DNA from: Kangiella sp. HZ709
GTDB lineage: Bacteria > Pseudomonadota > Gammaproteobacteria > Enterobacterales > Kangiellaceae
NCBI RefSeq assembly: GCF_009674675.1
Contig: NZ_WKJC01000001.1
Span: forward strand, 813,031-877,030
DNA: 64,000 nt
Reading direction: 5' to 3'
The position numbers and the translations under genes were made by a program. Below, piece after piece: positions 19,652 through 21,324 of the stretch; position 1 is the first letter of the stretch, and each line of letters opens with the position of its first letter. Under the pieces are notes generated by a model, which saw only the letters and a list, made by a program, of their open reading frames with translations, was not told the DNA's origin and did not search any database.

Positions 19652-19680
19652 AAAAAGAGCTAGCTTACGCTAGCCCTTAA
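19652..19680 (-). terminator. Intrinsic terminator at the end of rtcB
   Basis: On the minus strand GCTAGC-GTAA-GCTAGC is followed by TCTTTTT. The stem starts in the last codons of rtcB. The short stem suggests partial read-through to the small basic gene. Confidence 0.6.
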
Positions 19681-20866
19681 TACAGACCACTTGCTTTAAA
19701 GTGTGCACGACTTCAACCAAGTCATGCTGGTTTTCCATAACCGTGTCAATATCCTTATAAGCCGCAGGGATTTCGTCAATGACTTGACTGTCTTTGCGGC
19801 ACTCAACGCCTTTAGTTTGCATCTCTAAGTCAGAACGCTTAAACAACTTCTTAGCAGCGGTACGACTTAATGTTCGACCAGCGCCATGCGAACATGAGCA
19901 GAATGATTGCGGGTTACCTTTTCCTCGAACAATAAATGACTTAGCACCCATTGAGCCAGGAATAATCCCTAAATCACCTTCTCTTGCGCGGATAGCGCCT
20001 TTACGCGTTAAGTAAACGTTTTCTCCAAAGTGATTTTCCATCTCGACATAATTGTGATGACAGTTAATCGCTTCTTTAGTCACGCTAAATTCTGGCAACT
20101 GTTGTTTTAAAACATCCAACACTAAAGCCATCATTTTTTGACGATTTTTGTAGGCATAATCTTGCCCCCACTTAACCGCAAACCAGTAATCGTCAAAAGA
20201 TTCAGTACCTTCGCTTAAATAAGCTAAATCTTTATCTGGCAAATTAATATGATGCGTTTGCATCTCTTTCTTCGCCAATTGAATAAAGTACTGGCCAATT
20301 TGATTACCTATACCGCGCGAACCTGAATGCAACATCACCCAAACATCGTTATTCTCATCTAGGCATAATTCAATAAAATGGTTTCCTCCACCTAAGGTTC
20401 CCATTTGAATGATCGGTGTTTTATGTGGCGCCTTCATTCGCTTAATAATCGCCGGATGCTTGGCGATAATTTTATCTAAACCATCCATTAATGGTCTTGA
20501 ATACTTATCGTCAAACCCCGTCCATTTATGAGCCGCAAAGCCCACAGGAACTTTATCCTCAATTGCCATACGAATTGGCTTTAAGTTATCCGGTAATTGA
20601 TAAGCTTTTAGCGATAAACGCACCGCATTCATCCCACAACCGATATCCACTCCAACTGCTGCCGGGATAATCGCTTTTTTAGTTGGGATCACTGATCCAA
20701 CTGTTGCCCCTTTACCCAAATGCACATCTGGCATTGCTGCGATATGCGAATGAATAAAAGGTAAGTGCGACATATTTTCCAACTGCTGAATAGCTTCTGG
20801 TGCTATATCTTCGGTATATACTTTTACCGGCACTTTGCCTTTTTTAAATACTCTTTGAATAGGCAT
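19670..20866 (-). CDS. rtcB: RtcB-family RNA 3'-phosphate ligase
   Basis: RNA ligase of 398 residues. Metal- and guanylate-binding signatures are present: GVDIGCGMNAVR, TLGGGNHFIEL, LHSGSRGIGN, NCHHNYVE and CSHGAGR, whose His is the GMP-accepting residue. RtcB joins RNA ends carrying 2',3'-cyclic or 3'-phosphate to 5'-OH ends with GTP and Mn2+. In bacteria this repairs tRNAs and rRNA cut by nucleases. No RtcR activator or RtcA cyclase is seen nearby. Control is more likely by the leader/attenuator at 21009-21152. GGAAAGG precedes the ATG. Confidence 0.93.
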   Translation of the reverse strand: MPIQRVFKKGKVPVKVYTEDIAPEAIQQLENMSHLPFIHSHIAAMPDVHLGKGATVGSVIPTKKAIIPAAVGVDIGCGMNAVRLSLKAYQLPDNLKPIRMAIEDKVPVGFAAHKWTGFDDKYSRPLMDGLDKIIAKHPAIIKRMKAPHKTPIIQMGTLGGGNHFIELCLDENNDVWVMLHSGSRGIGNQIGQYFIQLAKKEMQTHHINLPDKDLAYLSEGTESFDDYWFAVKWGQDYAYKNRQKMMALVLDVLKQQLPEFSVTKEAINCHHNYVEMENHFGENVYLTRKGAIRAREGDLGIIPGSMGAKSFIVRGKGNPQSFCSCSHGAGRTLSRTAAKKLFKRSDLEMQTKGVECRKDSQVIDEIPAAYKDIDTVMENQHDLVEVVHTLKQVVCIKG

Positions 20867-21008: not shown

Positions 21009-21152
21009 AAAAAAACCCTTAGACTCTTTCGAGGCCAAGGGTTTTAGGATTCTTGGCTCGAGATAATAATTACCTCGAGCTTTCAATAAGGTGCCCGAGG
21101 TTTAGCTTTGTTCTAAACTCCAATCATAATTAAACTGTTTCATCGGGAACCT
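21009..21152 (-). promoter_or_regulatory. Predicted transcription attenuator of rtcB
   Basis: Read on the minus strand, five consecutive pairings compete. Segment 1 (21144-21152, AGGTTCCCG) pairs with 2 (21089-21101, ACCTCGGGCACCT). Segment 2 pairs with 3 (21072-21080, GCTCGAGGT). Segment 3 pairs with 4 (21052-21062, CTCGAGCCAAG). Segment 4 pairs with 5 (21030-21043, CTTGGCCTCG part). Segment 5 pairs with 6 to give an intrinsic terminator (AACCCTT/AAGGGTT plus T7 at 21009-21015). A 13-codon ORF runs between segments 1 and 2. If a ribosome stalls inside it, 2:3 and 4:5 form and the terminator is lost; if it finishes or never starts, 3:4 and the terminator form. Confidence 0.78.
21102..21143 (-). 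CDS. 13-residue leader peptide of the rtcB attenuator
   Basis: The ORF encodes MKQFNYDWSLEQS. It starts at an ATG 6 bases after a consensus GGAGG and ends directly before antiterminator segment 2. Codons 5-7 are AAT, TAT and GAT (Asn, Tyr, Asp), all read by queuosine-type GUN-anticodon tRNAs, followed by a Trp codon. Such tRNAs are the known targets of the colicin E5-type anticodon nuclease. The distance from codon 7 to the stop (about 7 codons) leaves segment 2 free when a ribosome stalls there. That the peptide works as a sensor is inferred. Confidence 0.72.
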   Translation of the reverse strand: MKQFNYDWSLEQS

Positions 21153-21172
21153 CCAAATCGATTCTTTAAAAC

Positions 21173-21190
21173 GTTTGCACCATTGCAAAC
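21173..21190. promoter_or_regulatory. Palindrome upstream of the rtcB leader
   Basis: GTTTGCA and TGCAAAC flank a 4-base centre. It lies about 30 bases upstream of the leader-peptide ATG and could be a repressor site or a 5' hairpin of the leader RNA. Confidence 0.4.
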
Positions 21191-21324
21191 TTGGCTGAAG
21201 ATTATAGTGATTAATTATTAAACTGCAAATTTTTTATCAAATGATTACTAAAACTATACTTAAGATATCTTTCAGCACAATACTTCAGTGTCATAATAAG
21301 TATAAAGATGATTGGGGTGAATTT

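Follow-up and report, generated by a model that had tools for sequence, protein, structure and literature searches.

Does the DNA upstream of rtcB in Kangiella sp. HZ709 control this RNA ligase gene by attenuation, and if so, what would it sense? A sequence-only reading of the window (the whole stretch of DNA analysed, 64,000 nucleotides of a 2.41-Mb genome) had described, on the rtcB strand, a 13-codon open reading frame (ORF) with a perfect GGAGG, five competing helices and a terminator with seven T residues, and had proposed that this leader responds to damaged tRNA. We analyzed the leader by RNA folding, by comparison with shuffled sequences and by searching the regions upstream of rtcB in other gammaproteobacteria. 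The leader probably acts as a ribosome-mediated transcription attenuator, which would control rtcB according to the state of translation, with elongation in general as its input.

Anatomy and predicted mechanism of the Kangiella leader

Folding and shuffling confirmed the anatomy that had been described. The features are as follows.

21201 to 21229, minus strand: promoter-like site TTTGCA-17-TATAAT, matching 10 of 12 consensus positions; the similarity among Kangiella loci begins just upstream of it
21173 to 21190, minus strand: 5' hairpin GTTTGC..GCAAAC, from the RNA fold, at the expected transcript start
21143 to 21154, minus strand: segment 1, containing the Shine-Dalgarno (SD) sequence GGAGG (21154-21150)
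21102 to 21143, minus strand: leader ORF of 13 codons, MKQFNYDWSLEQS followed by a stop, with GGAGG upstream
21088 to 21101, minus strand: segment 2, immediately 3' of the stop codon, partner of segment 1 or 3
21069 to 21080, minus strand: segment 3, partner of segment 2 or 4
21052 to 21067, minus strand: segment 4, partner of segment 3 or 5
21029 to 21039, minus strand: segment 5, within the terminator 5' arm and loop
21009 to 21044, minus strand: intrinsic terminator with T7; hairpin 21044-21013, -16.9 kcal/mol
19670 to 20866, minus strand: rtcB, 398 aa, the downstream gene and predicted target, assigned from RtcB family models and relatives

The calculated duplex energies were -14.5 kcal/mol for 1:2, -17.2 for 2:3, -17.2 for 3:4 and -12.8 for 4:5. 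The fold of the whole leader had a z of -5.35. Downstream of the stop codon, the strongest run of three successive helices scored -41.5, whereas shuffles averaged -15.8 (sd 3.7). In both tests, none of 200 shuffles did as well. Because both the fold and the helix chain exceed the shuffles, we regard the leader as a real observation and not a product of chance. The terminator was found by RNA folding and is absent from the output of a simple terminator scan. It ends about 145 bp upstream of rtcB, whose product matches the RtcB family models with scores below the curated cut-offs and has relatives with up to 99% identity. The gap between the terminator and rtcB also holds a second small ORF lacking an SD sequence on the minus strand (MAWDKKGQLIFIISFRQ, 17 codons), which starts 93 nt before rtcB (about 20959). 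Its counterpart at locus L003 is VAWDKESYLVIWLISLRQ, 18 codons read from GTG, and at L002 only MAWDKKDC, 8 codons.

The site TTTGCA-17-TATAAT was the top promoter-like site of the scanned stretch and lies directly upstream of the leader. Since the scan found no more sites in this stretch than in shuffles (10 vs 13.3), the predicted promoter rests on its place and its conservation. Transcription would be expected to start near 21194. In L003 the 5' hairpin at that point reads GTTAGC..GCTAAC, a two-sided change that keeps the pair.

Among 20 Kangiella genomes, rtcB is present in three, and a DNA search found the leader in all three. In the 17 genomes without rtcB, two of which are less than 90% complete, the best match to the leader DNA had an E value of about 1e-3 or worse. 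The two other Kangiella loci become similar to the window at 21234 and 21233, just before the -35 box. ORF codons 5-13 (NYDWSLEQS), segments 2-5, the terminator stem and the T-run are identical in the three species, while the spacers and codons 3-4 differ.

The leader thus combines a short SD-led ORF upstream of rtcB with mutually exclusive helices ending in an intrinsic terminator, which suggests the following mechanism. RNA polymerase would start at about 21194, and a ribosome would load at the GGAGG of the short ORF. On reaching the stop codon, this ribosome would cover segment 2, leaving 3:4 free to form and the terminator to end the transcript. Without ribosome loading, 1:2 would form and permit 3:4, again leading to termination. 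A ribosome held in the first codons would cover segment 1 only, and 2:3 and then 4:5 could form, pre-empting the terminator and letting rtcB be transcribed. The input would probably be poor elongation generally (various cut tRNAs, damaged ribosomes or ribosome-blocking drugs).

Leaders of the same plan in other gammaproteobacteria

The same plan, in a different sequence, was found to precede rtcB in other gammaproteobacteria. Leaders were sought upstream of rtcB, and elsewhere by DNA search in the Kangiella genomes. Of the 84 upstream regions handled, 72 had a hairpin before a T-run; 15 of these were dropped by hand for a poor terminator or a doubtful ORF and three had no ORF, leaving 54 leaders that were folded. 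Hand curation fixed the ORFs of L006, L036, L037 and L169, and at L110, which offered two ORFs, one was selected.

In the order of genome G371 (f101), where 33 of 63 genomes have rtcB, 30 of the 31 loci inspected yielded both a leader ORF and a terminator. This rtcB is carried by 77 of 175 Acinetobacter genomes, and a first scan found an ORF of 8-10 codons with a terminator in 61 of the 77 upstream regions, 55 of these 61 leaders sharing the stem CTAGCATTCGCTAG. The 16 loci missed at first, owing to the start-codon pattern used, were rescanned with looser limits, and 15 had an ORF (7-10 codons) and a terminator, giving 76 of 77; the last, L201, shows a terminator only. In f59, 10 of 29 rtcB loci had both (the L169 leader among them), and single cases were L006 (ORF without SD), L012, L036, L037, L077, L107, L110, L122 and L124. 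The leader ORF has 13 codons in Kangiella and mostly 9-14 elsewhere.

Applied to every group, one uniform rule recovered 33 of the 34 leaders from Kangiella and f101 and 60 of the 61 from Acinetobacter. The same rule called no leader in 28 Psychrobacter loci, five of which have less than 200 nt upstream, or in 26 loci from an order search; L077, from the order search and with only five T, was missed by the rule and called in other scans. Order searches around G494 (three genomes) and G401 (two genomes) yielded no new locus. The rtcB of Psychrobacter is of the same kind (64-67% identical; loci L009, L011, L013-L035 and L039-L041), and no terminator-bearing leader was called there. Within f101, 13 of the 14 loci of genus g373 have no gap between the T-run and the rtcB start codon (L145, L147-L149, L151-L153, L155-L159 and L162; the exception is L144). 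The terminator hairpin of these loci could also block the rtcB ribosome-binding site.

Covariation of the alternative helices was judged in f101 and Acinetobacter, as the three Kangiella loci are too similar. We used a swap test, in which the pairing of each segment with its own-species partner is compared by permutation with its pairing to partners from other species. The test keeps composition and does not fully remove shared ancestry; its segment windows were picked by eye, with L147 and Acinetobacter landmarks as guides. In a set of 15 f101 leaders sharing less than 75% identity, the count among 20,000 permutations was 0 for each of 3:4, 4:5 and a helix between the start codon and a segment X, 88 for 1:2 and 347 for 2:3. 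For 15 Acinetobacter leaders it was 0 for each of 1:2, 2:3 and 3:4, and 4:5 did not covary (10,048 of 20,000). None of the control pairings, five in the f101 set of 15 and three in Acinetobacter, fell below 5%. In a larger f101 set of 28 leaders with relatives kept, all five helices were below 2% (0, 59, 0, 0 and 0 of 5,000), and two of six controls fell below 5%, namely 3:5 (15 of 5,000) and start codon:2 (246 of 5,000). The low value of 3:5 is expected because both segments pair with segment 4.

The additional f101 helix is long-range and joins the leader start codon and codons 2-3 to X, which lies just before the terminator (L147, L148, L164 and others). Its pairs include ATGTTC/GAACAT, GTGCAAA/TTTGCAC and ATGCGT/ACGCAT, and it is weak in L138, L143, L145 and L146. 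Crossing 4:5, it should favour the terminator when no ribosome is on the start codon. An attenuator requires mutually exclusive helices, and in two lineages, f101 and Acinetobacter, such helices appear to be maintained through compensating changes, which supports the attenuator plan of the sequence-only reading.

We modelled the effect of ribosome position in 50 leaders (one from each of 35 peptide clusters, plus 15 from Acinetobacter) by blocking a 28-nt footprint and folding the transcript as far as the terminator loop. The probability that an upstream segment had already captured the terminator 5' arm was 0.59 for a ribosome on the start codon and 0.58 on codon 3, compared with 0.46 without a ribosome and 0.40 for one at the stop. 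Capture with a ribosome at the start was higher than with none in 27 leaders, lower in one and level in 22 (Wilcoxon p 9e-8), and higher than at the stop in 31, lower in three and level in 16 (Wilcoxon p 9e-8). The effect was gone when the post-stop segment was shuffled (0.48, 0.47, 0.48 and 0.48). Ribosome position thus decided the helices in silico, weakly so in Acinetobacter, where the modelled effect was small (0.43 to 0.47). An earlier fold run on 54 leaders pointed the same way; the window leader showed less contrast there, its stop state being 0.59 by the arm measure.

In the window leader, P-site codons 1-3 gave 2:3 at 0.74 and 4:5 at about 0.9. With the stop codon in the A-site, 2:3 was at most 0.02 and 3:4 about 0.6. 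Without a ribosome, 1:2 was at 0.59 (0.80 in L003). The OFF states of the window are leaky in the model, as 4:5 remains at 0.35-0.40 without a ribosome or at the stop (0.40 and about 0.36, respectively). At codons 8-10 the window leader again took mostly the ON fold, which L003 did not; from codon 4 onward the modelled outcome varies with the assumed footprint, and single-codon results differ in L003. The trp-type logic suggested earlier, with 2:3 and 4:5 after an early stall and 3:4 with the ribosome at the stop, is thus reproduced by the folding model. Because the fold without a ribosome favours 1:2, a lack of initiation should mean OFF. Loss of the anti-SD sequence at the 16S 3' end, considered as an ON signal, was rejected on this basis.

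The anatomical case for a ribosome-read rtcB attenuator that is real and taxonomically wide is strong, as judged from sequences and folding models. We infer that the ORF is translated, that stalling leads to read-through and that the input is a general stress.

Leader codons and the predicted input

The sequence-only reading held that the leader senses the loss of Asn, Tyr and Asp (and His) tRNAs through cutting of the colicin E5 type and turns on RtcB to mend them. N5-Y6-D7 is indeed identical in three Kangiella species, and in the model N or Y in the A-site puts the window leader mostly in the ON fold; the result for D, however, depends on the footprint, and in L003 the outcomes for N and Y are likewise borderline. 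To follow the codons across lineages, we compared 53 leaders (37 peptide clusters) with shuffles of each ORF; two of the leaders were from Acinetobacter, and L006, which has no SD, was excluded. At least one of N/Y/D/H occurs in 50 of these 53 leaders, the exceptions being L132, L175 and L179, but the group was only weakly enriched (z 2.0), with His at 0.6, Asp at -1.0 and Tyr at -2.6. Thr, Lys and Tyr were depleted in the leader ORFs (37 clusters).

The Acinetobacter peptides, of which MPTLQGKTD, MPLQLGTTP and MPTLQGKTQ are common, differ further. A few carry runs such as DNYY. Among 39 distinct peptides of the first scan, 24 hold one of N/Y/D/H and three hold two consecutively; 13 further peptides, counted by hand, lean more to these residues (11 hold one and five hold two consecutively). 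In all 52, 17 have none of the four and 44 lack two consecutive ones. N-Y-D is kept only within Kangiella, in three close species, so that the conservation expected of a sensor for these tRNAs was not found, and the colicin E5 link had no support beyond the Kangiella peptide. With Tyr and Asp below expectation and 17 of 52 Acinetobacter peptides free of all four residues, we judge sensing of these tRNAs very improbable. As a general rule, queuosine-tRNA (N/Y/D/H) sensing was rejected on the codon statistics and the Acinetobacter peptides.

The residues that stand out are others. Asn had a z of 5.0 against ORF shuffles (4.9 against dinucleotide shuffles) and Gln a z of 4.3 (2.3), and Asn made up 15.6% in frame vs 8.0% and 6.7% in the other two frames. 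Compared with 59 AT-matched gene starts, the leaders were richer in Asn (15.6% vs 3.9%), Gln (9.4% vs 3.2%) and His (5.1% vs 1.1%), with Tyr at 2.9% vs 2.3% and Asp at 1.6% vs 4.2%. This could mean that mainly the decoding of asparagine, perhaps also glutamine, is sensed, with low charged or cut tRNA-Asn or tRNA-Gln as the signal. However, Asn is spread over all ORF positions, the last codon included, at which stalling should have no effect. Only six Acinetobacter peptides repeat one residue three or more times in a row, always Leu or Thr, so that no such run is of Asn, and 26 of the 52 distinct Acinetobacter peptides lack Asn altogether (hand count). The enrichment could instead reflect a need for unstructured, easily read codons. 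Sensing of Asn or Gln decoding therefore seems unlikely, while the Asn enrichment leaves room for codon-specific sensing as far as sequence statistics go.

We found no codon common to all leaders and no shared run of codons for one amino acid. Some leader codons are constrained by RNA pairing, through the start codon with X or segment 2. Given how the codons vary from lineage to lineage, a single amino acid or tRNA is probably not what is sensed. We favour the reading in which the ORF serves as a general test of elongation and senses ribosomes that start but cannot elongate. This accords with the known response of E. coli, in which rtcAB is activated when translation is impaired by various agents and lesions (PMC5175333).

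AbsR28, RtcR and related control systems

The Acinetobacter leader coincides with a described RNA. The Rfam model RF02606 (AbsR28) matches the A. baumannii leader at L132 2305-2484 with 225 bits and L010 with 60 bits; it had no match in the other nine of 11 leader loci scanned or in the Kangiella window. In L132, where the annotated rtcB start is at 2501, the T-run (2461-2467) and the 9-codon ORF lie inside the 180-nt match, which extends 17 nt beyond the T-run, and a promoter-like TTGATC-16-TAAAAT ends 7 nt before 2305. The published AbsR28 probe (minus its tail) and primer strings have exact matches in L132.

AbsR28 was reported from a Northern signal and RACE as an RNA of about 180 nt, about the terminated size, placed in A. 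baumannii between A1S_2838 (lysine permease) and A1S_2839 (hypothetical), and its level was about equal across the growth phases tested (Sharma et al., PMC3976366). RNA-seq of AB5075 gave 203 nt (PMC5320573). From its place after the lysine permease, A1S_2839 is taken to be rtcB. Our literature search found no paper naming both AbsR28 and RtcB, and searches for an rtcB attenuator gave none among the matches listed. AbsR28 is most simply read as the terminated rtcB leader, published as a stand-alone sRNA.

The published view differs. AbsR28 has been described as an Mn2+-binding sRNA that acts in trans and reduces T6SS; with Mn2+ it reportedly binds tssM mRNA and, with Hfq and RNase E, hastens the decay of this mRNA, and deletion of absR28 is reported to have had no polar effect on the downstream A1S_2839 (PMC11796373). 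Of the published findings available, this lack of a polar effect speaks most strongly against strong attenuation under the condition of that study. The short RNA would then come from an independent sRNA gene, with rtcB having its own promoter and the ORF and stems serving the sRNA; our leader search, confined to regions upstream of rtcB apart from the Kangiella DNA search, also leaves space for such a gene. Set against this, the Kangiella genomes without rtcB are also without the leader, the alternative helices covary, which a plain sRNA does not need, and the T-run abuts the rtcB start codon in 13 of 14 g373 loci. We regard an independent sRNA gene as distinctly unlikely.

Mn2+ is the metal used by RtcB. 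A leader responding to a ligand such as Mn2+ rather than to the ribosome would fit the change in AbsR28 structure with Mn2+ (PMC11796373), but the lineages aligned have an SD-led ORF whose stop codon adjoins segment 2, and by eye they share no sequence core, as a ligand pocket would need. We hold this to be extremely improbable, and prefer a leader read by the ribosome.

A. baylyi ADP1 is reported to have an AbsR28 homologue. In A. baylyi MGD6, evolution in LB led to substitutions within or close to AbsR28 in five of six clones (PMC11426457). Loss of tRNA genes through the deletion in MGD6, which might account for these mutations, was not found described in the available parts of PMC11426457 and PMC7192602. 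Deletion of rnd, encoding a tRNA-processing RNase, helps MGD6 in minimal medium (PMC11426457).

Control of rtc genes by RtcR was also compared. RtcR was detected as PF06956, which among 14 control genomes matched in E. coli only. It was absent within 6 kb of all 53 leader-bearing rtcB places, at least six of which lie less than 6 kb from a contig start, where a neighbour could be missed, vs presence at 24 of 27 comparison places (26 genomes, order search). Upstream scans of 26 of the 27 comparison places found a leader only at L077, the place in G249 without an adjacent RtcR. Elsewhere in the genome, RtcR was found in 30 of 53 leader genomes (19 of 26 in f101, 11 of 17 in Acinetobacter, 0 of 3 in Kangiella and 0 of 7 others); its absence in the window genome, noted before, thus extends to all three Kangiella genomes with rtcB.

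We lean towards the view that these leaders form a class of translation-stress attenuators in several gammaproteobacterial orders, in which 9-14 mixed codons test elongation and failure leads to RtcB without a protein sensor, RtcR being the alternative and AbsR28 the stump of such a leader. If so, repair would be tied directly to the function spoiled by broken tRNA or rRNA, in bacteria without an adjacent RtcR. AbsR28, examined in a hospital pathogen as an sRNA acting in trans, would also have to be seen in a new light, and the mutations reported around it in evolved A. baylyi would gain a possible explanation.

These leaders resemble several known systems in part. RtcR/sigma-54 control of rtcBA serves the same enzyme and also responds to damage to the translation machinery, but through a protein sensor that binds tRNA halves (Hughes et al., PMC7790460, whose main text, as available, has no words beginning attenuat- or leader) and that is absent within 6 kb of the 53 leader-bearing places. 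AbsR28 (RF02606) and the Acinetobacter leader appear to be the same RNA, with promoter, 9-codon ORF, stems and terminator before rtcB; it was published as an intergenic sRNA, with no ORF or rtcB mentioned in the available text of PMC3976366, and the Kangiella leader has no match to its model. Upstream ORFs responding to ribosome-targeting antibiotics, such as the E. coli topAI-yjhQ leader (PMC12121999), likewise use a short ORF that reports translation stress to control a downstream gene, which there is a different gene from rtcB. Attenuators of the trp/his type share the SD-led ORF, the competing helices, the terminator, the stop next to segment 2 and the predicted antitermination on stalling. 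Unlike them, the rtcB leaders would control an RNA ligase and not a biosynthetic operon, have a longer helix chain and lack a shared codon run for one amino acid, their codons differing between lineages.
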